From a virus, in IMG/VR virus record IMGVR_UViG_3300027847_001126, positions 1 through 35,290 of that record: a stretch of 35,290 nucleotides of DNA; one strand, given 5' to 3'. Under the pieces are notes generated by a model. That model searched no databases, had not been told where the DNA came from, and was given only the letters and a program-made list of their open reading frames with translations. The translations under genes were made by a program, and so were the position numbers. Below, in pieces: positions 5,058 to 35,099 of the stretch. The number at the start of each line of letters is the position of its first letter. Position 1 is the first letter of the stretch.

Positions 5058-6944
5058 GTGCCGGAACAATCAGCTAAATTACAAGTATCTGAATTAGATT
5101 ATAGTTCTATTAAATCAAACTTAGTAGCATTTTTAAAAAGTCAAAGTGAATTTTCAAATTTTGATTTTGCGGGATCTGGATTAGATGTTATAATGGATTT
5201 GCTTTCATATAATACATACTACAATTCCTTTTATTTGAATATGTTAGCCAATGAAATGTTTTTAGATACGGCGGAACTCAGAAATTCTGTTGTACAAAAA
5301 GCTAAACAATTAGGTTATACGCCGCGATCTGTGCAGGGAACTAAAGCAATTGTTCAATTAGAAATAATTCCGAGTGATTCTGCAACATCTATGATTGTTG
5401 AAAAAGATAAAAGATTCTCAACAACTATTGATGAACAAAAATACATATTTACAACAGCAAATTCTTATTCCGGAATATTGGATGATTCAGGAAAATTTAC
5501 GATAAGGGATGTTCAATTAAATCAAGGTATCAGATTAACACACAAATATAAAGTTGATTATAATAATAAAGAACAACAATTTATATTACCAAACACAAAC
5601 ACCGATGTAACAACTCTTTCTGTTGTTATAAAATCTTCACCCACTTCAACTGAAACACATTCCTATCAATTAATATCAGATACAGTTAAAGTTACACCTA
5701 CATCTAATGTATATTTTTTATATGAAACTTTTGAAAATAAATTTGAAGTTCAATTCGGAGATAATAAAGTTGGATATAGGCCGGCAGATGGAAGTCAAGT
5801 TATTTTAGCTGCGAATATATCCGATGGAACAGCTACTAATAAAGCAGTAGCATTTAGAGCAATAGATGCAATAGGTGGATATTCTAATGTTTCTGTGCTT
5901 ACTACAACAGCTGGATATGGTGGAGGCAGCAGGGAATCTGTTGCTGAAATTAAGTATAATGCACCAAAATTATATGAAACTCAAAATAGATGTGTAACAT
6001 TAAATGATTATAAAAGAGTTGTGGAAAAAGAATGGGTTAATGCTGAATCCGTAACATGCTGGGGTGGAGAACAAAATGACCCTCCGAGATATGGAAAAGC
6101 TTATATTGCTGTTAAACCTAAAAGTGGATTATTTTTAACAACAAAAGATAAAGAAGTTATTAAAAAAGAAATTTTAGCAACAAAGAATATGGTATCTGTT
6201 ACGCCAGAAATTGTGCCACCGGATTATCTATACATATCAATTATCGCTAACGTTCGATATGATCCAAATAAAACTGTACAATCACCCCAAGAAATAGGTG
6301 AAAGAATTGTTTCAACTGCTCTAGATTATAATATTGAGGAATTAGGAAAATTTGATTTAAGATTTAGATATTCACGATTAACCACTTTAATTGATAATTC
6401 TGATCCAGCTGTTTTGAACAACCAGACAACAGTTTTATTATTTAAACGATTAGTAGTTGAGCTCGGCCAGGCATTTAACTATTCTCAAAATTTTTCTAAT
6501 CAGATAAAATATCCTTATAAGGGATATAAGGGAGCATTATCATCTTCAAAATTTGAATATATCAATGAAAATACTGATGTATTAGAACAAAATACATTAT
6601 TAAATGATGCTGACGGAATTATTCAAGTTGTGAAAGAAGAAGCCGGCGCAGTAGCAATTGTTAATTCTAATGTGGGAACAATAGATTATGAAACTGGTAA
6701 AATGACGTTGGTAGGATTTAAACCTAATTCTGTCGAGACGGTAGTAAATAATAATACTATTGAAATATATGTTGAAACCAATATTCAAGATGTTACCCCC
6801 ATTAGAGAACAAGTTATAATAATTAATAGAAAAGATGTAATAGTTAATATGATAGTAGACACGGCCTTATCTACTGGCGATTTTGTTCAGGGAACTGTTA
6901 ATGAAACGCCGGCTTTGGTAGTATATGGAGCTAATACCGCATAA
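5058..6944 (+). CDS. 6: Baseplate wedge subunit gp6 (Baseplate_J-like)
   Basis: This protein forms the inner ring of the baseplate with gp25, gp53, gp7 and gp8. The N-terminus shows the gp6 pattern: a short helix (YSSIKSNLVAFLKSQ), FDFAGSGLDVIMDLLSYNTYYNSFYLNMLANEMFL-type residues at about 33-70, then RNSVVQKAKQLGYTPRS. The middle holds the J-like part with YETQNRCVTLNDYKRVVEKEW (about 303-325). Its length of 628 is close to T4 gp6 (660). The start is GTG at 5058, preceded by AGGAAA at 5048-5053; no better in-frame ATG precedes the conserved N-terminus. The stop overlaps the next start by one base (TAATG), suggesting coupled translation with the gp7-like gene. Confidence 0.93.
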   Translation: MPEQSAKLQVSELDYSSIKSNLVAFLKSQSEFSNFDFAGSGLDVIMDLLSYNTYYNSFYLNMLANEMFLDTAELRNSVVQKAKQLGYTPRSVQGTKAIVQLEIIPSDSATSMIVEKDKRFSTTIDEQKYIFTTANSYSGILDDSGKFTIRDVQLNQGIRLTHKYKVDYNNKEQQFILPNTNTDVTTLSVVIKSSPTSTETHSYQLISDTVKVTPTSNVYFLYETFENKFEVQFGDNKVGYRPADGSQVILAANISDGTATNKAVAFRAIDAIGGYSNVSVLTTTAGYGGGSRESVAEIKYNAPKLYETQNRCVTLNDYKRVVEKEWVNAESVTCWGGEQNDPPRYGKAYIAVKPKSGLFLTTKDKEVIKKEILATKNMVSVTPEIVPPDYLYISIIANVRYDPNKTVQSPQEIGERIVSTALDYNIEELGKFDLRFRYSRLTTLIDNSDPAVLNNQTTVLLFKRLVVELGQAFNYSQNFSNQIKYPYKGYKGALSSSKFEYINENTDVLEQNTLLNDADGIIQVVKEEAGAVAIVNSNVGTIDYETGKMTLVGFKPNSVETVVNNNTIEIYVETNIQDVTPIREQVIIINRKDVIVNMIVDTALSTGDFVQGTVNETPALVVYGANTA

Positions 6945-9900
6945 TGGCTGATAATAGAATTTCTGAAATTATTCAAAATCAATTACCTTCCTTTTTTACG
7001 GAGGAGGGTTCCAATCTCCCTCTCTTTCTTACTAAGTATTTTGAATTCCTAGAATCTTATCAAATAGAATATACCGATTTAATTTTAGACGAATATAATA
7101 TAGTTCTTGAAGATGATGCCGATGCTTATTATATTTACGGCACAGCTCTGGATGATGGATTAATATACTCACCATCCGATTTAGAAGTTGAATATGATGT
7201 CGGATTACAAACAGGTTATTATTTTCCAATATATGGTAATAGGCCAGATGCGATAGCAGCTTCTGATGATCCAGGAATAGTTTATGAATTACACTTAGAA
7301 GAATTCGCCGGACGTACATTTTATATGCCCCAAAAAGGTGGAGAAAGCGGCGTCAACTTCGGAGTATATGAAAACGATCCACCTACAACAACACTTACCC
7401 AATATGCCACTTCCGGACGAAAATTTCTATTAGAAAGCACAGAAGACGATAATCCGAGTGTCAGTGAAATTCATGAATTATTGGTTGAATCAGATAGAGA
7501 TCCAACTACCGCAACATTTTCATTAGGTGAATTAATTGTGGGTGCCGTTTCTGGAACTGAAGCAATAATTACGGGTGTTCAAAATCACGGTGTTTTTCCA
7601 GCAGGCAAATATCAATCTGCAGATATTACCAGTAAAAATTATAAAACCGATCCTCATGTATTATTTGCGCGCCCCACAAATACTAAAGCTTTTCTTCACG
7701 GTGAAGAAATAGTTGGAAAAAGATCTAGAGCAAAAGCAGTAATTGGTCAAACCGATAAAGACATTAAAAGAAATCCTCTCCGAGGGGCGGCTGATTTAGA
7801 TTTGGTTAATGATATAGATGAAACCGATAATATGTATTTGGAGAGGTTCCGGGATGATTTTCTAACAAATATTCCTATCGGTGCCATTGGAGATTTAAGA
7901 CAAGCGATAAAAACCGCCAGAGAAATTTATAGGTCAAGAGGAACAGAGGATTCATTTTTATGGTTATGGAGAACTGTTTATGGATCGGAGCAACTTTCCT
8001 TTATATATCCAAAAGAAAGATTATTAAGACCATCCGACGGAACTTGGAAATCATTAAAATCTATTAAAATTTTTACTGGAGCAGCTTTAAATCCAGATGA
8101 TTTTAATAGTAAAATTATTAAAGGTGAACAATCTCAAGCAACAGCTACTGTTGATAATTCAATTTCATATTTTGAAGGAACAACTGGTGTAACAGAATTA
8201 TTTTTAACCGATTATACCAAAGGATATGATGTTCGTTTTGATGCCTATTCTGATTTTCAATCAGACGAAACAATAGCAACAATTGAAACATATATTGACG
8301 CAGAATTAATGGGAAGTGATAATTCGGAAGATGTGGTTAAATCAATGACCTTCCCGACAAAATCCTCTCGGGGAACATGTATTGCGGTTATTGGGGAAAT
8401 TGATATTATAAGTAATGGAACAGGATATGCCATTAACGATGAACTTATAATTACAGGAGGTGCCGGAAAAGGTGCTGTTGCACGCGTTGCGTCAACTGCT
8501 AATGGTGCTATTGATGAAGTTATCATTGATGATGGAGGTAATGGTTATTATGGAGGCGAACGTTTAGAAATTAATAATTCTGGAACCGGAGGAAGAGGAC
8601 ATACCGGCGTAATTTCCAAAGTGCTTCCCACAGGAGTGTTTAGAAGTTCTAATACAAAGGTTAGCGCAGCTATATCAGTTGCTGAAGGTGGAACTGCTGA
8701 ATCAGCTATATTATTAAATTCGGCTTCTTTTTCTATCGAAGAAGAAGATGTTAAATATCCAGAAAATATTAATACACACTTTAGTTCAAGTAATACAATT
8801 ACGTTTGTTGCGGAAGTAGCAAATCAAGATACCGCAGAAGGTGGAGCAAGTATATTATTAGAAGAAGGAACAGGTTTAATTCTTATTGATAGTACAGATG
8901 GAAGTTCTGATGCTGGAGATAATATTCTTTTCCACACTGAGGCTTTTGAAGATGATATACAACCAGGTTATTTTGTATATGATTCTAAAACAGGAACCAG
9001 AGGAACAGTTGCAGGGCCCTCAGTAAATAATTCAACTTTTGTATATGCATTAGAAAGTCCACAGGCTCCTAATTTTGTTGAAGGTTCAGCGTGTGATCTT
9101 TATTATAGTGCAAATGGATCTGCAGTTCCTGGTAAATCTAATATGTTTACCATTAACACGATTCAACCCGCCGGCTATTATGAAATTAAAGATGAAGAGG
9201 GATTATTTGCAAATCCATTAGGAGATGGTTCAAGATCAGTTTCAGATTATTATGGAGGAACTGCTTATACTTATACAGGTTTCGGGTCCATTTCTGAAAC
9301 TCGAGTAATAACTACAGGACTTGATTATATAAGAGCTCCTAGATATGCAGCAAAAAATGAATCTACTTTAGGTCTAGAACAATGGAGATTTGAAGATCCT
9401 ATAACAGGAAAAAATACTGGTCGATTAACATATTTAAATTTTGATGAAAATGTTTATGGAAAATATAGATTTGGCGAATCTGTTATAGGGGTAACATCTG
9501 GCAAGAAAGCAAAAGTAATATTACCTTCTGTTAATTCTACATCAAATTCTACTTTTAGTACCATGAAGGTAAAAGATGAAGAAGCAACTTTTTCTCTTGA
9601 AGATGTAAATGTTCTTCAAAATAATATTGGAGACTTTGAGGATGGAAGTATTTCAGGACTTTCGGCTTTTTCTTCAAAAAGAACAGCCGTAGATACTGGG
9701 AGCCACACACTTTCAGTAGAAACATCAAATACTATTTCTGGTTCATATAGTGGTAAGATAGCGATTAATGATCAGTTAGAAACTTATATTGGTTTACGTT
9801 CAATAGATAGTGAAGAAGGTGAAGCATATGCGAATACTATTATTCCAGGAAATCAATATAATGCTAAAATTTCTTTTAGAGGCAGCAAAAGTCTCAAGTT

Positions 9901-12900
9901 CGTTGAATTAAGATATGGCCATTCAGATACCGATGTTGATTATGAACCAGTAGGATCCACAGTAGGATTAACAGAATCAGTTGTTTATACTCTTCTGGAA
10001 ACAACTAATGCAGATCAAGTTTATACTTTCGAAGGAAAATTTGTAGCAAGTTCAGATCGTTATCACGCTGTTTATTTATTTGCAAATACTTCGACTTCTA
10101 CAACATATGATTTACATATAGATAATATATCAATCGCTGATATATCATCTCGTGGAAAAATTCAATATGAAGGATTTAATACTGCCGATGATATAGAATC
10201 ATTTATGATGTTAGAACCCGCAGATTTTATTCCTGGCGAAATGATTATTTCTTCCCAAGGTGCTAGAACAGCAACTTTAGCATCTTCAAATGCTTCTTAT
10301 CAGGAAACAAATTCTGGTTATGGTAACAATGCTATTTTAAAAGCCGGAGCTTTAAAAACTGGAGCTATCAAATCTCTTTCAATTACTACGGCAGGTATTA
10401 ATTATAATATAGTACCTGCTGTAACTGCTCCTGATGGCGATAATAATGCAACATTTTTAGCTATACGAACAGCTGTAACAAATTATCCTGGTAAGTTTCA
10501 AGATAAACTCGGAATGATTAGTGATATTATCAGGATTCAAGATTCTTATTACTATCAAGATTTTTCGTACGTTTTAAGATCGGACATTCAAATTAATGAA
10601 TTTAGAGATTTAGTTAGATCTTTTGTTCATCCTGCTGGTTGGAATGTTTTCGGGGAAATTGGAATATTACTTTTGATAAATGTAGACGTTAAAGTGGAGA
10701 CGGATACTATTAAAAAGCTTGAACTATTTGTTGATAGAACACCAGCATTTGTACCTACATACGGACCACTCACAACCAGCCAGAGAGGTACTGATACAAT
10801 TTATAATAGTACTACCATGGGCCCTTATACTAGTATTTTCGGGCAAATTGATATGTGGACTGGAGAAGTTCATAAAATGCATATTGAATTTTTGGATCCG
10901 CGAACAATAGGATTTGGAATTACAACAGATGATAAACATTTTGCATTTCATGCCGGACGAGTAGATTGGTTAGTTGGACGTGGATGGGATTATGAACCAT
11001 ACAGCCGAGGTTTGGCTGGACAATTTGATCCGTGGAACGATGGATATGATTCAAATCGCACAGGGAGAGTAGAAATACCTCATCATTTTTCGCAGCATGA
11101 TAAAGCGCGTCTTAATTCTACTGAAAAAATTGCTCCTTGGTATCCAAATGTATTTCCAGAATTAGTCATTCCAGGCCACTTCGAAGGAAATGAATGTACG
11201 GGCCACAGTGCCTTTGGCGGAGTTTCATTATGGGGCAAGTCAACTCATTATAATACAGAAAATAGGTGGGGTCCAGTACATACGACAAGTGCATGGCGTG
11301 CACCTGCAGGAGCACAAAGACCAGCCGACACCTATTGGGGTCTAGGCGGAGATGGGAATCCGAATACAGAACGTAAAGGCGGTATAGATTATTGGTTAGA
11401 GATAGGTATATTAGGTAAGTATCGTTCTCCGGACGGTACACAAGTAATGCCAACAATTACTACTTATTGGACTTACGGCCAAGAAGAAATTGAATTACTT
11501 GCGGACTTGTGGAAGGATAATCATTATCTCGAAGTTAAAACACACCTCGAAATTTTTGATCGTTGGGGATTACAACGGATACAACTTGATCTTCCAGCTT
11601 TAACAGGCGTGTCTACTTATGTTAACATGGCAGACTCTGTTTTAGAACCCATTTTTCCAGAAGCTGCGTTTGGCTGGCCCATAACAGAATATCCAAATCC
11701 TGCATCATGGGAAATAATGGTAACAGTTTCAGGCACAGATTTTTATTTTGATGGTGTAAACATTAATGATAGTGCTTGGTCAAGAAAACTTATTAAAGGG
11801 GTTACATATCGTTTCAATCAAGAAGACAGTTCTAATTTAACTCATCCATTAAGATTTGCTAGTATAATTGATGGTCATCATAATGGAAGCTTCGTATCAA
11901 GTATGGAATTTCCTGTAACTGCCGTAGGTACTCCTGGTAATGGCGGTGCTTATGTCGACTTTAAAATCCCAGATCATACTTATAAAACTTGGTTACCTCC
12001 GGATGAACTAGTTGATTGGCAGCCTGATTTTTATCGCGCATTATTTGCATTTTGTCATCTGCATGCAGACTTTGGTGGTCCAATAATGACGGAAAATAAA
12101 TCAGTACTTTCTTCAACTATAGAAGTGACTCCACACACTCCAGTTGCAGCGGTTGATAAACCACAATTAACTGCTATTAATACAGGAACTCAAGTATCCT
12201 CATCTGGTCAAGCGTATGCAAGAGCAAAAGATAAAAAATTAAATAATCCAAATACATTTATAGTAGCGGGTGCAAAAGTATATGGTGGAATGGCAGTGGG
12301 ATTAAGACCTGATGGAAAAGTAGAAAGAGTATATGAAGTAGGAAACGTATTATTTCCACGTATTAATTATGTTCATTCATTATTAGGAATAGTTAATGAA
12401 GATGCCGAAGTAGGAGAAGTTGTAACAGTAAGAGATACAGATTCTATAGAAGAACGTGTTTGGGATTTAATACCAGGAGCAGAATATTATCCTAATTATA
12501 GTCAAAATGTTTGGGCTAAAGGTGGCGATCACGAATGTTGGCTCACTACTGTACCGCCTACAATAACTTCTGCAGATAGTTTAGATAGAATTAAATTAGG
12601 AAAAGCAGTAACTAAAGATCAATTAGATTTATCTTTTTCTCAATGGAAATTATATGAATATCAAGCTTTTGAAGATATTAGTAAAGGCCATGTAGTTGGT
12701 TTAATGGATAATGGAAAAATTCAACTAGTTTTTTGCGAAGCAAATGGTGATGCGAAACCTCAATTAGATGGTGTACATTCAGTATTAGGACTAGCAAAAG
12801 AAGATATAGCACTGGGAGATTGGGGCGAAGTAGTTACAATAGATAAATCTCTTCAAATGGCTGCTTTTCTAGAAGGATCCTATAATCCACTTCCCGGAAC

Positions 12901-13585
12901 GGGGTTATCAAAAGGTACAAATTATTATGTTGATTATAGAGATGCTTCAATAAAAGAATTTGGAACTTATAGTAATCATCCCGATAATATTATCGGAGTC
13001 GCTTTACAAAACGATATAATTAAAATAACTACTAAGTTACCAATTCATCAAACATATTCACCACAATGGGATTTGACAACCACAGCATATCCATATCCAA
13101 CATATTGCCCGGTTAGAACTATTCCTAATCCTGATGAATATTTTCTAGCACATGACTCTATAGATGCTGCTGAACAATATGATGATCAAATAATTGAAAG
13201 CTTGGTAGTCACAAATGTGACACCAGTTAAAAATTTAGAGCAAGGTTCAACAGTTTACTTTGATGATATAAATATAATATTAGAAGAGTCCGATGGGATG
13301 TTATTAGAAGATGGAGATGAATTATTAGCGGAAGATGGCTCAAACGCTGCTACTTCTTCGATTGGTAAGCTAATAATCGAATCTGAATTTTTACTATATG
13401 AAGATCTCATAAATACAGGAATAGGTCAAGAACCGAATAGAAAAATGAATATTTATAGTCGTCATGACGCTAAATATATCGTGGGCGATTTGACCACAAC
13501 AACTTTTAACATTCATAATCGCGGTAATAAATATTTTCCAGAAGGAATATTAGATGCCGTTGCTCAACATACCGTTTTAGAGTAA
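6944..13585 (+). CDS. 7: Very large baseplate wedge protein, gp7-like, with extra domains (2213 aa)
   Basis: The N-terminus (RISEIIQNQLPSFF, then FLTKYFEFLESY) and the segment around 324-355 (TAREIYRSRGTEDSFLWLW, then YPKERLLRPSDGTW) match the large wedge protein that sits between gp6 and gp8 in marine T4-like phages. T4 gp7 has 1032 residues, so this is more than double. Added regions seen in order: an SGTEAII module near 200; Gly-rich NGTGY and GNGY beta repeats around 490-550; an SGKKAKV module near 850; a Trp/His-rich block (about 1300-1580); a cupredoxin-like domain (about 1587-1716); and two copies of a VGL-x-x-x-GK...VHS-x-LG...GEVVT unit (from 1782 and from 1914). The acidic C-terminal part has LLEDGDELLAEDG. 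Orthology to gp7 rests on position and the N-terminal third; the rest may serve fibre attachment or particle decoration. Confidence 0.75.
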   Translation: MADNRISEIIQNQLPSFFTEEGSNLPLFLTKYFEFLESYQIEYTDLILDEYNIVLEDDADAYYIYGTALDDGLIYSPSDLEVEYDVGLQTGYYFPIYGNRPDAIAASDDPGIVYELHLEEFAGRTFYMPQKGGESGVNFGVYENDPPTTTLTQYATSGRKFLLESTEDDNPSVSEIHELLVESDRDPTTATFSLGELIVGAVSGTEAIITGVQNHGVFPAGKYQSADITSKNYKTDPHVLFARPTNTKAFLHGEEIVGKRSRAKAVIGQTDKDIKRNPLRGAADLDLVNDIDETDNMYLERFRDDFLTNIPIGAIGDLRQAIKTAREIYRSRGTEDSFLWLWRTVYGSEQLSFIYPKERLLRPSDGTWKSLKSIKIFTGAALNPDDFNSKIIKGEQSQATATVDNSISYFEGTTGVTELFLTDYTKGYDVRFDAYSDFQSDETIATIETYIDAELMGSDNSEDVVKSMTFPTKSSRGTCIAVIGEIDIISNGTGYAINDELIITGGAGKGAVARVASTANGAIDEVIIDDGGNGYYGGERLEINNSGTGGRGHTGVISKVLPTGVFRSSNTKVSAAISVAEGGTAESAILLNSASFSIEEEDVKYPENINTHFSSSNTITFVAEVANQDTAEGGASILLEEGTGLILIDSTDGSSDAGDNILFHTEAFEDDIQPGYFVYDSKTGTRGTVAGPSVNNSTFVYALESPQAPNFVEGSACDLYYSANGSAVPGKSNMFTINTIQPAGYYEIKDEEGLFANPLGDGSRSVSDYYGGTAYTYTGFGSISETRVITTGLDYIRAPRYAAKNESTLGLEQWRFEDPITGKNTGRLTYLNFDENVYGKYRFGESVIGVTSGKKAKVILPSVNSTSNSTFSTMKVKDEEATFSLEDVNVLQNNIGDFEDGSISGLSAFSSKRTAVDTGSHTLSVETSNTISGSYSGKIAINDQLETYIGLRSIDSEEGEAYANTIIPGNQYNAKISFRGSKSLKFVELRYGHSDTDVDYEPVGSTVGLTESVVYTLLETTNADQVYTFEGKFVASSDRYHAVYLFANTSTSTTYDLHIDNISIADISSRGKIQYEGFNTADDIESFMMLEPADFIPGEMIISSQGARTATLASSNASYQETNSGYGNNAILKAGALKTGAIKSLSITTAGINYNIVPAVTAPDGDNNATFLAIRTAVTNYPGKFQDKLGMISDIIRIQDSYYYQDFSYVLRSDIQINEFRDLVRSFVHPAGWNVFGEIGILLLINVDVKVETDTIKKLELFVDRTPAFVPTYGPLTTSQRGTDTIYNSTTMGPYTSIFGQIDMWTGEVHKMHIEFLDPRTIGFGITTDDKHFAFHAGRVDWLVGRGWDYEPYSRGLAGQFDPWNDGYDSNRTGRVEIPHHFSQHDKARLNSTEKIAPWYPNVFPELVIPGHFEGNECTGHSAFGGVSLWGKSTHYNTENRWGPVHTTSAWRAPAGAQRPADTYWGLGGDGNPNTERKGGIDYWLEIGILGKYRSPDGTQVMPTITTYWTYGQEEIELLADLWKDNHYLEVKTHLEIFDRWGLQRIQLDLPALTGVSTYVNMADSVLEPIFPEAAFGWPITEYPNPASWEIMVTVSGTDFYFDGVNINDSAWSRKLIKGVTYRFNQEDSSNLTHPLRFASIIDGHHNGSFVSSMEFPVTAVGTPGNGGAYVDFKIPDHTYKTWLPPDELVDWQPDFYRALFAFCHLHADFGGPIMTENKSVLSSTIEVTPHTPVAAVDKPQLTAINTGTQVSSSGQAYARAKDKKLNNPNTFIVAGAKVYGGMAVGLRPDGKVERVYEVGNVLFPRINYVHSLLGIVNEDAEVGEVVTVRDTDSIEERVWDLIPGAEYYPNYSQNVWAKGGDHECWLTTVPPTITSADSLDRIKLGKAVTKDQLDLSFSQWKLYEYQAFEDISKGHVVGLMDNGKIQLVFCEANGDAKPQLDGVHSVLGLAKEDIALGDWGEVVTIDKSLQMAAFLEGSYNPLPGTGLSKGTNYYVDYRDASIKEFGTYSNHPDNIIGVALQNDIIKITTKLPIHQTYSPQWDLTTTAYPYPTYCPVRTIPNPDEYFLAHDSIDAAEQYDDQIIESLVVTNVTPVKNLEQGSTVYFDDINIILEESDGMLLEDGDELLAEDGSNAATSSIGKLIIESEFLLYEDLINTGIGQEPNRKMNIYSRHDAKYIVGDLTTTTFNIHNRGNKYFPEGILDAVAQHTVLE
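11702..12091 (+). other. Cupredoxin-like domain inside the gp7-like protein
   Basis: The segment has the order of a single-domain cupredoxin: a strand with EIMVTVSGTDFYFDG, GVTYRFNQED followed by THPLRF (His1634 of the host protein), a beta hairpin, and then FAFCHLHADFGGPIM. In this last stretch Cys1704 and His1707 are spaced as in a type 1 copper loop (C-x2-H). The position of the axial Met is Phe1710. Cupredoxin folds with this His...Cys-x2-His order are well known; similarity here is by eye, and copper binding is uncertain given the missing Met. Confidence 0.45.
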
Positions 13586-23292: not shown

Positions 23293-24696
23293 ATGGCATC
23301 ACCATTAAAAGTTTACAATTCTGGATCGGCTGTTCAAGTAATGACCGAAGCAGAAATCGACAGTATGATAGTACCTCTTGTTCTGCAAGAGTTTGCGTCT
23401 AATAATGTTTATAATGTAAGAGGAAATTGTACCGCGTATGCTAATAATGATGGCAACGTCGGTTCCTTTGATAATAGATACAGAGACGATGACGTAGGTG
23501 ATCATCCTATTTCCGCATCGAATTTTACCACAACCACTTGGTCTATCCAACAAGAACAATCCAACGCTGCTAGTACAGCTAACGTAATCTATCCAACAAA
23601 ACTTATTGTTTCAGGCAATAAACTTCAGCAAATGAACTTTGCGGATTTAATAGCTACTATTCTAGCTAGAGTTTCTAATAATTGGAGAACTAATTTATAT
23701 CCTGTAGGAGGTTATTATTTCGGCCCTGCCGCGCCCGATGCAGATACATGGATTTATACTGGCGACGCTGTAACAGAAACTTATAGACAAGCTGGTGCTG
23801 ATAGTGAAATTGTTTATAGGTTATGGAGAAAAACTGCCCCCAATACAACTTCTGGTGATCGGCCTATTTATAATAGGCCAGGTAATGATGGTGTTCAGGA
23901 AATGACTGATGCTGATATTAAATCATTAGCGGCGGAGTGGAGAAATTATTTGATGAATAGCAGTGTCGGAGAAGATATTGGTTATTATAAATTAGTAGTT
24001 GGCACTTCAACCCCGACTCCCGGAACATGGGTTCAAACCGGTGCTTATACAGATTATCTAACAGATACTGGCGATGTAATTTATTCCCAAGGATATGAAG
24101 GAATATATTCTCAAATGTATGAAGGAATATATTCAGGACAATATTTAGGATTATATTCTGGACAATTTACAGGTATATATTCTGGACAATTTACAGGTAT
24201 ATATTCAGGTCAATTCACTGGACTTTTTTCACGTGGTTATGAAGGTTTTTATTCGCAAGGATATTCCGGTGGATATGCAGGTGGTTATCAAGGTCCTTAT
24301 CAAGGTGGATATACAACCGCATATACTGTAACATATGGGTCTGGAAGTGAAGCTCCTAATCCTCAAGCTTCTTCGGAAGGTGGTTCATTTTCTCATACAT
24401 ATTCTGGAGTTTATTCTGGAATTTTTTCAGGTACATTTTCTGGACAATATTCTAATCAATTTGCTGGATTTTATTCTAATCAATATGAGGGAATTTATTC
24501 ACAAGGTTTTCAAGGAATATATTCACAGGGATTTGAAGGAATATATTCACAGGGTTTTGAAGGATATTATTCTCAAATGTATGTAGGAATATATTCAGGA
24601 CAATATTCTGGATTTTATAGTAATCAATATACGGGGAGAACTGTATTAGCTTCTTTAGATTCTCAGCCGTATACTTTTTGGAAGAGGATTAACTAA
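23293..24696 (+). CDS. Virion-associated protein with aromatic octapeptide repeats (paralogue A), 467 aa
   Basis: The N-terminal half (1-262) contains two related short units, each led by VQVMTEAEID (about residue 15) or VQEMTDADIK (about 200), with KLVVGTSTPTPGTWVQTGAY near the end of the half. From residue 264 the protein turns into a repeat of eight residues, Y-S-x-x-Y/F-x-G-x, in two blocks (264-349 and 370-448) separated by the linker PNPQASSEGG. It ends with YTFWKRIN. Aromatic residues at positions 1 and 5 and Gly at 7 dominate. It is adjacent to and overlaps (1 base, TAATG) a paralogue with the same C-terminal plan. Both follow a fibre-like gene, so a fibre tip, adhesin or particle-decoration role is likely, but that is inference. 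Confidence 0.7.
   Translation: MASPLKVYNSGSAVQVMTEAEIDSMIVPLVLQEFASNNVYNVRGNCTAYANNDGNVGSFDNRYRDDDVGDHPISASNFTTTTWSIQQEQSNAASTANVIYPTKLIVSGNKLQQMNFADLIATILARVSNNWRTNLYPVGGYYFGPAAPDADTWIYTGDAVTETYRQAGADSEIVYRLWRKTAPNTTSGDRPIYNRPGNDGVQEMTDADIKSLAAEWRNYLMNSSVGEDIGYYKLVVGTSTPTPGTWVQTGAYTDYLTDTGDVIYSQGYEGIYSQMYEGIYSGQYLGLYSGQFTGIYSGQFTGIYSGQFTGLFSRGYEGFYSQGYSGGYAGGYQGPYQGGYTTAYTVTYGSGSEAPNPQASSEGGSFSHTYSGVYSGIFSGTFSGQYSNQFAGFYSNQYEGIYSQGFQGIYSQGFEGIYSQGFEGYYSQMYVGIYSGQYSGFYSNQYTGRTVLASLDSQPYTFWKRIN
24082..24339 (+). repeat. Octapeptide repeat block 1 of paralogue A
   Basis: Tandem 24-base units encode Y-S-x-x-[YF]-x-G-x. Two units are identical at DNA level (24154-24177 and 24178-24201, encoding YSGQFTGI), and a third at 24202 differs mainly at synonymous positions. 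This pattern suggests recent unit duplication inside an older repeat array. Confidence 0.85.
24400..24636 (+). repeat. Octapeptide repeat block 2 of paralogue A
   Basis: A second array of the same eight-residue unit (for example YSQGFEGI and YSNQFAGF) follows the PNPQASSEG linker. Three near-identical copies of YSQGF-x-GI or -GY lie at about 24496-24570. Confidence 0.8.
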
Positions 24697-26435
24697 TGAG
24701 TAAACCTTGTCGAATATTGCCATTTGGAGCGAATACCGGGCTTGGTTCTAGTGAAACAGGCAATTTGTTTATAGGAAAATTAACAGAAACGGGTTCCGGT
24801 GCTTCAGCGAATGTTGGAGAAATATGGGGAATAAATGAGCATCAGGGTGCCAGTGGTCAAGATACATATAAGAACGATATTGATGCAGGAGACTACTTAG
24901 TAATTAGATATCAAGAATATGGAATGCTCGGCGTTGGGCAGTTCATTAAAGTTACAAATGTTACCGGTACTTTTGGCTCAGCAGTATTAACATTGGAAGA
25001 TGGTGCAGCTCCCGACATTTATAGTTATTTAAATGCGTCCGGCGGAAATTATACTGGTCAAACTGATGTTGAAGTTATTTTTGAAAAAGTAGAAAGTTGG
25101 GGCGTACAGGAAATGACTGTAGACCAAATCGATGAGTCATGTGTTGTTCCTATTTTTGAAAGATGGGGAAGTTATACAAAAGGAACGGCAGGCAATGATT
25201 TTTGGAAGGGCCATGTCCGACCGATTTCTGGCACCAGTGCTACAGCCGGTTTTACTAGTGCTGGATATATAGGTGAAAGATATAGAAGTCCGGACGTTGT
25301 AGGAGATCACCCAGTTGCGAATAATGTATCTATAACTAATGTATTATTAGAATATAATTCCGGCAGTGATCCATATAATGGAACCAGTTTTAATGAAACT
25401 CATGTTGATGATACAGATAGTGTTCCTCCATTTATTAAGGTCGACGGCAGTAATGTCAAAGTTATGACTGAATCAGAAATGGAAGATAGTTCAGATACTG
25501 TAATCGAAAGATGTGTTCAATATTATATTAGTGCAGCTAATACAGTAGGTTCTTATCATATTGGAACATCACCTGGAGATGGAGATACTAGTTCTTGGCA
25601 TAGTGAAACATTTTTTGAAGATAATGTTATATCCTCATCCGGTGCTGCAAATACTACTTATAATCTCTATAGAAAAGAATCTGGTATAACAAGAGGATGG
25701 AGCGGTACTAGATTATTATCAAATGCTAATACAACTTCAAGAGCTGCAAATTCCGTTTATTATTTTGGTGGAACTAATACTGATTATATTGCCGTTGGAA
25801 ATTATCCACGTGCTGCAACAGATGAAGTAATTTATAAACCTATATATCAAGATACTCCTAATCTAAAAGAAACGGCGTATACCGCTGGTATTTCCGGAAC
25901 TTTAACAAATACTGCTAATGATGCAGGAATGCATTTATATTGGCATAAACGTTTATTAAGAAATGTTCTTTCAAAAACAATAGGTACTTATGCATTTGTT
26001 GCCGGCGGTTCCGCGCCTGGATCCGGTACATGGCAAGCCGTAGGAACATGCTCGGATAGATTAACAACCATTGGAGATGTAATTTATTCTCAAGGATATG
26101 AAGGTATCTATTCTGCATCATATGAAGGTATCTATTCTGCTGGGTTTCAAGGGCCATATGAAGGAATTTATTCTTCCGGTTTTCAAGGTGGATATACTTT
26201 TACATATGGGTCTGGAGGAGAATCTCCTAATCCTCAAGCTTCTTCAGAGGGTCCAACATATTCTGGAGTTTATTCTTCTGGCTTTACAGGAATATATTCA
26301 GGAATATATTCTCAGGGCTTTACATCAACATATTCAGGCCAATATTCTGGATTTTATAGTAATCAATATACAGGCACAACAGTTTTTACTGTCCTGGAAC
26401 AAGATGATTATTCTTTCTGGAAAAGAGTAACATAA
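24696..26435 (+). CDS. Virion-associated protein with aromatic octapeptide repeats (paralogue B), 579 aa
   Basis: This paralogue of the preceding protein has a longer N-terminal part (1-460) with units led by VQEMTVDQID (about 141) and VKVMTESEME (about 255). These recall the VQVMTEAEID units of paralogue A, and a GSAPGSGTWQAVG segment parallels its GTSTPTPGTWVQTG. From residue 464 it has YSQGYEGI-type octapeptides, the linker ESPNPQASSEG, more repeats, and the ending YTGTTVFTVL...YSFWKRVT, nearly the same as paralogue A. The array is shorter and less regular. The first 100 residues (LGSSETGNLFIGKL, GDYLVIRYQEYG) differ. The shared C-terminus and variable N-terminus suggest domain shuffling or gene duplication. 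Function is unknown. Confidence 0.7.
   Translation: MSKPCRILPFGANTGLGSSETGNLFIGKLTETGSGASANVGEIWGINEHQGASGQDTYKNDIDAGDYLVIRYQEYGMLGVGQFIKVTNVTGTFGSAVLTLEDGAAPDIYSYLNASGGNYTGQTDVEVIFEKVESWGVQEMTVDQIDESCVVPIFERWGSYTKGTAGNDFWKGHVRPISGTSATAGFTSAGYIGERYRSPDVVGDHPVANNVSITNVLLEYNSGSDPYNGTSFNETHVDDTDSVPPFIKVDGSNVKVMTESEMEDSSDTVIERCVQYYISAANTVGSYHIGTSPGDGDTSSWHSETFFEDNVISSSGAANTTYNLYRKESGITRGWSGTRLLSNANTTSRAANSVYYFGGTNTDYIAVGNYPRAATDEVIYKPIYQDTPNLKETAYTAGISGTLTNTANDAGMHLYWHKRLLRNVLSKTIGTYAFVAGGSAPGSGTWQAVGTCSDRLTTIGDVIYSQGYEGIYSASYEGIYSAGFQGPYEGIYSSGFQGGYTFTYGSGGESPNPQASSEGPTYSGVYSSGFTGIYSGIYSQGFTSTYSGQYSGFYSNQYTGTTVFTVLEQDDYSFWKRVT
26085..26375 (+). repeat. Octapeptide repeat region of paralogue B
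   Basis: Units of the form Y-S-x-x-[YF]-x-G-x run from residue 464 to about 560, interrupted by the PNPQASSEG linker. Some units are shortened to six or four residues (for example YSGVYSSGF and YEGIYSSGF), so the register slips. Confidence 0.75.
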
Positions 26436-32129: not shown

Positions 32130-32582
32130 ATGATGAAAGATCGTGAACCAATTGATAAGCCATTATCAACAAAAGATGTAGATGACAAATTAAACGAGGT
32201 TTTTGAAATAACTCCAACGGTTGAAAAATTACCGGTTGCCAAAGTTATGCCTCAAAAAAATAAAGTAGATGATACAGATACTGATTTTCAATATTCGCGA
32301 GAGAATCTTTATAATATTATAGAAAGAGGTTCTGATGCCATGGACGGTTTAATGGAAATCGCCAGGGAAACAGAACATCCCAGAGCATATGAAGTAGTAG
32401 GCCAATTGATAGATAAGCTAACTAATGCAAATAAAGAACTTATTGGCTTACATAAAACAATGCAATCTATGAATGAAGATGGTCAAGGAAAGTCTCCTCA
32501 AAATGTAACAAATGCATTATTTGTTGGGAGTACCGCAGATCTTCAAAAACTTTTAAAACAAACTAAAGATAAGAAAAAGTAA
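32130..32582 (+). CDS. 16: Terminase small subunit gp16
   Basis: The DNA-packaging initiation subunit of T4-like phages, expected to form ring oligomers that recognise DNA and stimulate the gp17 motor. The central helices read YNIIERGSDAMDGLMEIARE, EHPRAYEVVGQLIDKLTNANKELIGLHKTM (about 66-117), the signature of the family (AxEVxxQLxxTxxxxNKELLxLH). N-terminal 50 residues and the Lys-rich C-terminus are disordered in appearance. Length 150 is near T4 gp16 (164). In T4 the large subunit gene 17 follows at once, but here a run of membrane and exported proteins follows instead, and no gp17 is found within the window. Confidence 0.9.
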   Translation: MMKDREPIDKPLSTKDVDDKLNEVFEITPTVEKLPVAKVMPQKNKVDDTDTDFQYSRENLYNIIERGSDAMDGLMEIARETEHPRAYEVVGQLIDKLTNANKELIGLHKTMQSMNEDGQGKSPQNVTNALFVGSTADLQKLLKQTKDKKK

Positions 32583-32591
32583 TGGAAACAT

Positions 32592-32936
32592 ATGATTGAT
32601 TTATTTAACACTTCTGAAATGATGATGCTTGGATTGGTATTATTTTCATCATTTTGGATATTCCTGTTTAATTACAGACAGGACAATAAGGATAAGTATA
32701 ACGGTCATGGATGGTTGATTTTACTTGATTTAGTAATTAATATGGGAATGTCAGCAACTGGTTATTTGTTGATTTCCATTGTATTTACAAACGTTCCACA
32801 ACTTGCGGCCTATGAAAGTTACCGTTATCCCATCGGTTATCTTTTTGGATTGACTTCCAATGTGAGCATACCAATTGTTCTCAAATGGTTTCAACAACAA
32901 ATCACCAAGAAGTTAAATGAAGCAGGAAAGAAGTGA
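32592..32936 (+). CDS. Small membrane protein, 3 TM, holin-like topology
   Basis: The 114-residue protein has hydrophobic segments at about 9-26 (MMMLGLVLFSSFWIFLFN), 42-65 (LILLDLVINMGMSATGYLLISIVF) and 80-98 (IGYLFGLTSNVSIPIVLKW), and ends in a positively charged tail QQQITKKLNEAGKK. Small size, three membrane segments and a basic tail are features of class I holins, but they are not specific, and no holin signature is certain. It could instead be a helper for the cytochrome protein that follows at 32944 after 7 bases. The gene starts 9 bases after the gp16 stop, with GGAA just upstream, so it is expressed with the late genes. Confidence 0.55.
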   Translation: MIDLFNTSEMMMLGLVLFSSFWIFLFNYRQDNKDKYNGHGWLILLDLVINMGMSATGYLLISIVFTNVPQLAAYESYRYPIGYLFGLTSNVSIPIVLKWFQQQITKKLNEAGKK

Positions 32937-32943
32937 GGTAATT

Positions 32944-33414
32944 ATGGCTGAAAAAGAAAAGGTTGTTGCAAATGGCAAAGACCAAAAAATAATACAACAT
33001 GATATTGAAGATTTAGATAAAAAGGTCGAAGAAGTTCAAGTCTTAGAAAATTTAATTAAAGATCAAACAGTTGCTAGTAAATCATTTATCTATGTTATCA
33101 TCGCACTTCTTATATATTTAATCTTTATGGTTATACCAGATATAGATGAAAAAGTTACATTTATGGAAAAGGATCTTAATTCCATTCTAGTTCAATCAGA
33201 ACGATACAAAAAATCAACTAGAGTATTTGCGAAAGATAATCAATGTGCGGGGTGTCATCTAAGTCCCGATTATTACCTCCACAATCTCTTAAAGAAATAT
33301 CCAAGTTTTTCTGATGTTAAAGCATTTATGTCGGTTGGTCATCAACGATATTATACTATGGCAGCACCACTACCTGATGCAGAACTATTAGAAATTTATC
33401 GAGCGTTGCAATGA
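32944..33414 (+). CDS. Membrane-anchored mini cytochrome c (CxxCH), 156 aa
   Basis: Residues 1-45 are charged and helical (IEDLDKKVEEVQVLENLI), residues 47-64 form one membrane segment (SFIYVIIALLIYLIFMVI), and the rest would be periplasmic. C101-A-G-C-H105 (bases 33244-33258) is a canonical heme c attachment motif. M139 in YYTMAAPLPDAELLEIYRAL sits where class I cytochromes c have the axial Met before the C-terminal helix (the usual MPxxxLxDxEL pattern). The cytochrome domain is thus only about 65 residues. I chose ATG at 32944, with GTGAGGT at 32933-32939, over the upstream ATG at 32917 that has no good site and overlaps the previous gene. Heme attachment would need host Ccm proteins. Its stop overlaps the next start (ATGA). 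Partner and function are unknown. Confidence 0.75.
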   Translation: MAEKEKVVANGKDQKIIQHDIEDLDKKVEEVQVLENLIKDQTVASKSFIYVIIALLIYLIFMVIPDIDEKVTFMEKDLNSILVQSERYKKSTRVFAKDNQCAGCHLSPDYYLHNLLKKYPSFSDVKAFMSVGHQRYYTMAAPLPDAELLEIYRALQ

Positions 33415-34526
33415 TTATGTTTGGTAAAATTATTGCATCTTTAGTTTGGGTTTTTTGGATAATGGCATTGTCTCCTGCCGGGGGACAAGATCCAATGAAA
33501 GAAAGACATGGAGTTGGTGTGCCAAAATCAGAATACAATCCAACGTATAGTTCAACATTCAATCGTGTAAAAGAAAGAGGAAATGTCATTTGTGGAACCA
33601 ATGATGAATTTCCCGGCTTCTCACAGGAAATTTGGAATAATGAAGATGGTGATAGGTGGGAAGGTTTTGATGTTGATATATGTCGTGCCGTTGCCGCCGC
33701 AATATTTGGTGATGCAGATGCAATCGAATTTACTATAGTCAATGGAAAAACACGATTTGAATTTTTAATAGATGGTTCTATAGATATTCTTTCAGCCGCC
33801 ACTACCTATACATTCACTAGAAACGTACTCAAAAAACTTGAGTTTGCTCCCACCACATATTATGACGGTCAAGGATTTATTGTAAGAAAAACACTTGGCG
33901 TGTCTTCAGCAAAACAACTAGAGGGCGCAAGGATTTGTTTTAGTTCTACTGGAACAGCTGCAAAGAACATTGCAGACTTTATGGAATTACATGGAATAAA
34001 TTATATCCCTGTCGCAGTACCACCTACTGAAAAAACAAAGAACGTATACAAAAGGGGTGACTGTGATATGTATGGTACTGATAGGTCTGGTCTTGCATCA
34101 AACAGATTAAGTTTTAGTGACCCTGATCGGCACATGATACTTCCAGAGATTATTTCAAAAGAACCATTAGGGCCAGTTGTCAAGTATGGAGATCAGAGAT
34201 GGTCAGATATTGTTCGATGGACAGTATATGTTCTTTTTATTGCAGAAGAAATGGGTATCAACTCAAAGAACATTGACTCGTTCAAGAACAACATAGACCC
34301 AAACATCCAACGATTTATGGGTGAGAAGAATGGTGTAGACCACCCCCATCTTGGTGCTAAACTAGGATTGCCCGCAACTTGGTCTTACGATATAATAAAA
34401 CAAGTTGGAAATTATAAAGAAATATATGAACGTAATGTGGGGCCAGATACCCCAATAGGATTACAACGAGGATTAAATAAACTTTATAGTCATGGAGGAC
34501 TACTATACGCACCACCATTAAAATAG
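33411..34526 (+). CDS. aapJ: AapJ-like general L-amino-acid ABC transporter substrate-binding protein
   Basis: A family 3 periplasmic solute-binding protein of 371 residues, about 30 longer than typical AapJ. A signal peptide lies at about 4-25 (IIASLVWVFWIMALSPAGG). Conserved AapJ segments appear in order: VICGTNDEFPGFSQ (59-71), WEGFDVDICRAVAAAIFGD (83-101), IDILSAATTYTFTRN (124-138), TTYYDGQGFIV, CDMYGTDRSGLAS (218-230), ILPEIISKEPLGPVV (243-257), DIVRW, KQVGNYKEIYERNVGP (330-345) and GGLLYAPP. R137 and D224 are at the positions that bind the carboxylate and amino groups of amino acids in this fold. The usual LSRNTT has become LSAATT. No permease or ATPase is nearby, so it would have to serve the host transporter. 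Base composition is richer in GC than neighbours, suggesting acquisition from a host. Overlap of 4 bases with the cytochrome gene. Confidence 0.9.
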   Translation: MIMFGKIIASLVWVFWIMALSPAGGQDPMKERHGVGVPKSEYNPTYSSTFNRVKERGNVICGTNDEFPGFSQEIWNNEDGDRWEGFDVDICRAVAAAIFGDADAIEFTIVNGKTRFEFLIDGSIDILSAATTYTFTRNVLKKLEFAPTTYYDGQGFIVRKTLGVSSAKQLEGARICFSSTGTAAKNIADFMELHGINYIPVAVPPTEKTKNVYKRGDCDMYGTDRSGLASNRLSFSDPDRHMILPEIISKEPLGPVVKYGDQRWSDIVRWTVYVLFIAEEMGINSKNIDSFKNNIDPNIQRFMGEKNGVDHPHLGAKLGLPATWSYDIIKQVGNYKEIYERNVGPDTPIGLQRGLNKLYSHGGLLYAPPLK

Positions 34527-34529
34527 TAC

Positions 34530-35099
34530 ATGAGATACGAACCGAGATACGATAAAAAGAATTACTTTGATGGTGTTCCAGAGGATAGAGCGGCGGTTGA
34601 TAATATTTTCAGATTAAATGTTACTAATCAAATGCGACTGAATATCAATGCCGACCAAAAGGCCGGACAAATGATTACAGTTTCAGCGATTGTGTTTTCC
34701 GTTACGGCAGCAAACTTTGACAATCCAATATTAATGTATCCGTTAATGTTTTTTGCGATTTGTTGTATTTTAACATTATTGTTTGCGATAATTGCGATAA
34801 TACCCAATGCCAAGTATCCTAAAAATAACTTAGGAAAACTGGATCAAATATCAGACCAATTTAATCCTTTGTATTTTGGACATTACTCTCATCTGACAAA
34901 GAATGAATATAAAGCATATTATGCCCTAACTTTATTGAACGATGACAGAATATATGATGCACTTGCAGAAGAAATTTATGTTTCAGGTAAAGCCCTCGCC
35001 CTTGTAAAGTATAAATGGTTGAGATGGTCTTATGGAATGTTTCTTTTCGGTATGGTAGGAAGTATAATGATTACTATATTTTCACTCATTGTGACATAA
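34530..35099 (+). CDS. PycTM-like (Pycsar effector, DUF5706) membrane protein, 189 aa
   Basis: Layout: N-terminal soluble part with FRLNVTNQMRLNINADQKAG (27-46), membrane segments at about 47-62, 68-92 and 165-188, and between them FNPLYFGHYSHLTKNEY (111-127), DDRIYDALAEEIYVSGKAL (138-156) and KYKWLRWSYGMFLFGMVGS (160-178). The ADxKA at the end of the first helix, the FFGHF-x-x-L-x-x-x-E-Y stretch and the IYxxGxxLxxKYxxLxxxYxxFxxG end follow the pattern I know for the PycTM/DUF5706 family. In bacterial Pycsar defence, PycTM proteins are membrane effectors activated by cyclic nucleotides. No cyclase or other signal gene is present here. It starts 3 bases after the aapJ-like stop, so it belongs to the same late block. 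The family call is by motif reading; function in a phage is open. Confidence 0.6.
   Translation: MRYEPRYDKKNYFDGVPEDRAAVDNIFRLNVTNQMRLNINADQKAGQMITVSAIVFSVTAANFDNPILMYPLMFFAICCILTLLFAIIAIIPNAKYPKNNLGKLDQISDQFNPLYFGHYSHLTKNEYKAYYALTLLNDDRIYDALAEEIYVSGKALALVKYKWLRWSYGMFLFGMVGSIMITIFSLIVT

Follow-up and report, generated by a model that had tools for sequence, protein, structure and literature searches.

Whether a bacteriophage can supply its host's inner membrane with a c-type cytochrome of its own was the question raised by a 35,290-nucleotide stretch of viral DNA (IMG/VR virus record IMGVR_UViG_3300027847_001126, positions 1 to 35,290; hereafter the window). It had been proposed from the letters alone (hereafter the original prediction) that an open reading frame (ORF) at 32944-33414 encodes a membrane-tethered mini cytochrome c, next to an amino-acid-binding protein in a late operon. 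Our analysis indicated that the locus is most likely an auxiliary-metabolism cassette of the phage, in which a genuine c-type heme protein is anchored in the inner membrane of the host. The ORF of 156 codons with a single membrane segment followed by a CAGCH motif was confirmed: the best 19-residue hydropathy window began at residue 47 (mean 2.69) and marked the one strong hydrophobic stretch, and the motif spanned C101 to H105. Met139 was found 34 residues past His105, as predicted, while the stretch that starts with the first Cys measured 56 residues instead of about 65. An in-frame ATG was also present at 32917; the start at 32944 was preferred, being preceded by GTGAGGTAATT, a plausible ribosome site. 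The cytochrome domain is very probably periplasmic and tethered to the inner membrane.

The same gene was looked for in other viral contigs, and more than 200 relatives were obtained. The single-sequence search gave 134 and the alignment searches 200 and 206, and a divergent member used as query added 23 further relatives forming a more divergent clade. Several loci were overlapping pieces of one contig, so the count of distinct sequences (134) is the safer one. Homologues lacking CxxCH, which would mark the motif as accidental in a structural or lysis protein, were sought with the A1 profile, without any demand for the motif. Among the 235 ORFs recovered, 229 covered the motif region, and CxxCH together with M129 and H133 was present in every one of them; the remaining six were short fragments, mostly truncated at contig ends. 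In 132 distinct DNA sequences the codons varied synonymously (C104, TGT 94 and TGC 38; H105, CAT 77 and CAC 55; H133, CAT 103 and CAC 29), and C101, C104, H105, G132 and H133 were retained despite codon change. In the 132 distinct sequences, a set that had been required to carry the motif, 18 of 55 core positions were invariant. Unrelated CxxCH strings were also present in the fetched DNA, and CxxCH by itself is weak evidence. Because the motif was invariant in 229 of 229 covering ORFs while its codons changed synonymously, an accidental occurrence in a protein of structure or lysis was ruled out, and the motif was accepted as real.

Profile comparisons were performed on 62 distinct heme domains. 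All of them matched the Pfam family SoxA-TsdA_cyt-c (PF21342, best 1.6e-5) and some matched other cytochrome c families, with weak matches to Cytochrome_CBB3 in 15 and to Tll0287-like heme proteins in 11. The top PDB profile match of the heme domain was SoxA (1h31, E 0.037). The window protein scored 13 bits against PF21342, below the curated cut-off of 27, and the lone PF21342 match in four metagenome-assembled genomes (MAGs) reached 24 bits and lay on a phage-like contig. The heme domain was then compared with TsdA and SoxA domains drawn from genomes of one bacterial phylum, using shuffles that keep CxxCH as the reference. The hhalign scores of 24.6, 26.2 and 21.4 were matched or beaten by 15, 28 and 46 of 100 shuffles, and in hmmsearch the real median fell under the shuffled median for TsdA heme 1 and SoxA, HMM scores being no better than those of shuffles. 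Since shuffles equalled the real scores, the SoxA/TsdA match stems from the motif rather than from the remainder of the domain, and the membership suggested by Pfam and PDB was dropped. By motif and setting the protein is a c-type heme protein, not a demonstrated SoxA/TsdA member, and covalent heme attachment to its domain is probable.

A protein without heme was also considered, a membrane scaffold or a lysis-related protein in which C101, C104, H105, M129 and H133 would hold a metal such as copper or zinc or would provide a structural disulfide. Such a protein would fit the finding that likeness to cytochrome families beyond the motif was not demonstrated, and its upstream neighbour (TM114, a membrane protein of 114 residues) is small, hydrophobic, basic-ended and holin-like by eye, with 1 of 24 members weakly matching a holin PHROG (E 0.32). 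However, five invariant residues including the exact CxxCH fall in a predicted periplasmic domain, where the cytochrome c maturation (Ccm) system would attach heme (PMC3884852), and an amino-acid-binding protein would be unexpected in a lysis cassette. The premise that a periplasmic CxxCH is enough for heme attachment comes from published work, in which even short CXXCH peptides are reported to receive heme from System I (PMC3884852). A heme-free role was regarded as improbable.

The distal ligand was the point on which the original prediction had to be revised. Met139 had been assigned to the standard ligand position, but this residue was Met in 105, Ala in 14, Leu in 11, Asn in one and Arg in one of the 132 distinct sequences, so that it was replaced in 27 (about 20%), whereas M129 and H133 were unchanged in all 132. 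One lineage was also short by one residue at position 139 (KRYSSATNPSDEEL), and the divergent clade had Ala (L272) or Arg (L283) there. M129 and H133 lie four residues apart on the same helix of the domain model (poor, pLDDT 52.5); in this model they could face the heme together, and either of them is a better candidate for the distal ligand than M139. A standard class I cytochrome c with H105 and M139 as ligands would account for Met being the most frequent residue at a site 34 residues past H105 and immediately before the last helix, but it fits poorly with the replacements and the one-residue deletion at this site while M129 and H133 stay constant. That reading is quite unlikely and not supported for the family as a whole, although single members may differ. 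In this way, the predicted membrane-tethered c-type heme protein beside an amino-acid-binding protein was upheld, with CxxCH in 229 of 229, and its standard class I His/Met form was given up.

The gene order TM114, cytochrome and AapJ-type binding protein, with or without a PycTM gene, formed a fixed cassette between the genes for the small (terS) and large (terL) terminase subunits, and the coordinates are collected in Table 1. In all contigs that extended far enough past TM114 the cytochrome came next, and the six without it ended within 154 bases. The stop codon of the cytochrome and the start codon of the binding protein overlapped as ATGA in 114 of 128 cases, in the window at 33411-33414, which suggests coupled translation.

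Table 1 Coordinates of the cassette, of the cytochrome features and of the corresponding slots in named phages (window positions unless a locus is given)
Feature	Position	Strand	Remark
Terminase small subunit (gp16)	32130..32582	+	upstream border of cassette
TM114, 114-aa membrane protein	32592..32936	+	about three hydrophobic segments by eye; directly upstream of cytochrome
Candidate membrane-anchored mini c-type cytochrome, 156 aa	32944..33414	+	
Parts of the cytochrome protein (residues)			coil 1-46; membrane helix 47-65; linker helix 66-98; heme domain 84-156
Predicted single membrane helix, residues 47-65	33082..33138	+	hydropathy; N-in/C-out orientation proposed
CAGCH heme c attachment motif (C101, C104, H105)	33244..33258	+	CxxCH in all 229 covering homologues
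Met129 codon	33328..33330	+	invariant candidate distal heme ligand
His133 codon	33340..33342	+	invariant candidate distal heme ligand
Met139 codon	33358..33360	+	axial Met of the original prediction; L, A, N or R in 27/132 distinct homologues
AapJ/BztA-type periplasmic amino-acid-binding protein (SBP_bac_3)	33411..34526	+	
PycTM-domain membrane protein (PF18967)	34530..35099	+	optional cassette member
Cargo slot regions after the terminase small subunit gene (HTVC008M, Melnitz, P-SSM2)	L284 24800-28773; L285 30590-34728; L133 5664-8837		

The amino-acid-binding neighbour directly adjoined the cytochrome in nearly every locus with enough sequence, so its presence, noted in the original prediction, was not incidental. 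It matched PF00497 (1.4e-11) and PDB 4z9n (4.7e-85), and was 47% identical over 326 residues to a Sinorhizobium protein. Signal-like N-termini were visible in the binding proteins, and R137 and D224 were conserved in at least 98% of 110 distinct phage proteins, in regions that hold the amino-acid ligand in the AapJ/BztA family. In Sinorhizobium, genes for two permeases and an ATPase adjoin that of the binding protein, whereas the phage binding protein stands alone; no permease or ATPase of the AapJ system was found in the window, and the phage protein would therefore need the host's permease. A pairing of the XoxG/XoxJ kind for methanol oxidation was dropped, since the binding protein is AapJ-type. 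Other transport proteins, namely TctA (2.1e-79), SbmA/BacA (4.6e-133) and a PnrA-like binding protein (3.4e-42), were seen in cassette-carrying contigs (L143 8154-9596, L136 5399-6364 and L136 10955-12202), and a cassette-carrying contig of 134 kb held a permuted tmRNA gene with the tag ANNNDYTPAYAYAIAA (L141 10289-10619).

In another explanation, the heme protein would serve as a sensor or regulator instead of an electron carrier. It would relay a periplasmic redox, oxygen or nitric oxide signal through helix and coil to TM114 and might, for instance, set the timing of a membrane event late in infection. The succession of coil, membrane helix and heme domain is a receptor-like layout, TM114 always adjoins and is highly conserved, the distal ligand appears to be other than the class I Met, and the weak Tll0287-like match in 11 of 62 heme domains points the same way. 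However, the N-terminal coil was the most variable part and was shortened in some homologues, the cytoplasmic part is without a signalling domain, and nothing points to an activity of TM114, whose weak match to a stretch of NADH dehydrogenase subunit N (E 0.012) gave no usable similarity. A sensor role was judged unlikely.

Downstream of the binding protein, either terL followed directly (4 bases after, or overlapping, in 13 loci) or PycTM and then terL. The PycTM protein matched PF18967 (4.8e-20) and the PADLOC PycTM model (7e-15). PycTM is the membrane domain of Pycsar antiphage effectors, here phage-encoded as an optional member of the cassette. These matches to a defence-effector domain would allow the cassette to act on competing phages or on the host envelope, in superinfection exclusion or a defence-related role, with PycTM as effector and the other proteins as accessories. 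But PycTM is optional, less conserved (46-56% mostly) and absent where the binding protein abuts terL, and no cyclase was seen nearby; a defence role is highly improbable.

The setting of the cassette was that of a T4-like virus. The window of 35.3 kb contained T4-like neck and tail genes, and a head-tail adaptor Ad2, a gp14-like neck protein, the gp15 sheath stabiliser and the terminase small subunit lay directly 5' of the TM114-cytochrome pair. The cytochrome gene thus sits among structural genes, with gp13, gp14, gp15 and terS upstream and, in relatives, terL downstream, and this position agrees with the predicted late operon, in which late timing of expression itself is presumed. The closest named phages for the window baseplate wedge protein were Methylophilales phage Melnitz (37%) and the Pelagibacter phages HTVC008M and Mosig (35%). 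The carriers of the cytochrome family form a large set of uncultured T4-like viruses related to HTVC008M and Melnitz, and the nearest cultured relatives infect ocean bacteria. Four MAG-bin contigs from unrelated phyla carried the cytochrome and shared the phage gene order. Their bins (Saprospiraceae, Chloroflexi, Acidimicrobiaceae and Flavobacteriaceae) and a further bin, Nitrosopelagicus, conflict with each other, so these contigs look like misbinned phage DNA and give no host name. Elsewhere in the window, two adjoining proteins (23293-24696 and 24696-26435) were rich in GIYSGQF/GIYSQGYE-type repeats, had no Pfam match and are possibly tail fibre or adhesin parts, and a structural protein of 2213 residues (6944-13585) had an FCHLHADFGG stretch resembling by eye a cupredoxin or YHYH-type copper motif.

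The place between terS and terL was occupied differently in other phages. HTVC008M had a 2OG-Fe(II) oxygenase and a tryptophan halogenase there, Melnitz an F5/8 type C protein and P-SSM2 hypothetical genes, and no homologue of TM114, the cytochrome, the binding protein or PycTM was found in the examined slot regions of these three phages. Like the cassette, the cargo of HTVC008M, Melnitz and P-SSM2 consists of non-packaging genes in the same slot, but it differs in kind; the terS-terL gap is therefore a cargo slot in T4-like marine phages. An HTVC008M gene annotated as ferrochelatase (L284 18809-19450, minus strand) had no Pfam match and is probably mis-annotated. Heme synthesis by the phage was discarded, as this annotation is without Pfam support and no homologue was present in the fetched loci.

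The cassette and its flanking genes differed in divergence. In the lineages set against the window, identity was mostly 38-48% for gp15 and terS, but 65-100% for TM114, 56-90% for the cytochrome and 56-89% for the binding protein; PycTM was less conserved (46-56% in most comparisons). As the identity of the cassette is far above that of gp15 and terS, the cassette moves between phage lineages. In L014, gp15 was 38% and TM114 100% identical to those of the window, with synonymous differences at only 0.19 of sites, which points to a recent exchange involving part of the cassette. In other lineages synonymous sites were near saturation and the proportion of nonsynonymous differences (pN) in the heme domain was about 0.1-0.2. 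In L058, L061, L069 and L128, the heme-domain pN was about 0.1 against a synonymous proportion (pS) of about 0.7, and the heme domain was 82-85% identical versus 47-55% for the coil and membrane part. Judged by these differences, the cytochrome is under purifying selection.

Taken together, the best explanation, held at about even chances, is a minimal inner-membrane-tethered c-type cytochrome in a TM114/cytochrome/AapJ-type cassette that supports respiration and amino-acid supply. The membrane helix would serve as a signal anchor that sets the C-terminal domain in the periplasm, where the host cytochrome c maturation system would attach heme at C101 and C104 with H105 as proximal ligand. The distal ligand would come from either M129 or H133, which are separated by one turn of a single helix in the low-confidence model. 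TM114 may act as an anchor, a partner or a regulator. On its short helical linker the heme domain would shuttle electrons between host respiratory complexes, as cytochrome cy/CycM does in alphaproteobacteria, while the phage AapJ would load the host amino-acid permease, so that respiration and amino-acid supply may be sustained during late phage protein synthesis. The electron-carrier role, argued from this analogy, could equally well hold or fail, and the pairing in the late region suggests energy and amino-acid support during virion production. More tentatively, the family may be a new, phage-only minimal c-type cytochrome whose distal ligand, M129 or H133 on a helix, is not of the class I type. 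It would travel with TM114 and the AapJ-like protein in a mobile module and rewire both respiration and the uptake of amino acids in infected cells.

Several results weighed against this explanation. The conserved distal Met before the C-terminal helix that defines class I cytochrome c was lacking, and the Pfam SoxA/TsdA matches may rest mainly on CxxCH. The AlphaFold2 models were poor (pLDDT 59.5 for the full length and 52.5 for the all-helical domain), and Foldseek with the domain model gave no match. Heme attachment is well supported, yet unproven. No cytochrome match was found among named phages. A pattern-limited search that did not cover Alphaproteobacteria gave no cellular homologue other than the four MAG-bin contigs, so that no electron partner in the host can be put forward. 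The binding protein was missing after the cytochrome in L098/L099, the only such cases among contigs with room for it.

Photosynthesis, sulfur and nutrient genes are known from phages. A virus survey reported cbb3 oxidase subunit I (PMC3474794), no cytochromes were seen in the phages of a study on oxygen-depleted waters (PMC8115048), and cytochromes or electron genes were unmentioned in a pelagimyophage survey (PMC7029224). A phage auxiliary gene is a known kind, while this family of c-heme domains may itself be new. If the proposal is true, viruses contribute either a component of the respiratory electron chain or a heme sensor in the periplasm, and rely on host cytochrome maturation; biochemists would gain a natural c-heme domain that is very small and has an unusual ligand, and energy flow in phage-infected cells would become directly testable with one small protein. 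These results suggested that viruses with the cassette tune the flow of electrons and nutrients at the infected cell surface.

Compared with known systems, the closest layout is that of the alphaproteobacterial cytochrome cy/CycM, which has an N-terminal membrane anchor, a linker and a single periplasmic c-heme domain. The likeness is one of layout, and the phage protein differs in its cytoplasmic coil before the anchor, its smaller heme domain and the lack of a conserved class I Met. The SoxA/TsdA domain (PF21342) was the best Pfam and PDB profile match of the phage heme domains, but that family has a Cys distal ligand, for which the phage family has no conserved Cys. A replacement of this Cys by His133, suggested by a by-eye alignment, is not put forward here. 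In the open-access literature searched, no phage cytochrome c subunit other than soxD was found (PMC8190135). The phage contigs with soxC/soxD came from two metagenomes only, and in soxD, the cytochrome c subunit, the first heme motif was missing in one of two sequences and the second in both (PMC8190135). Heme motifs are thus partly missing from phage soxD, whereas the mini cytochrome family keeps its motif without exception in over 200 loci.
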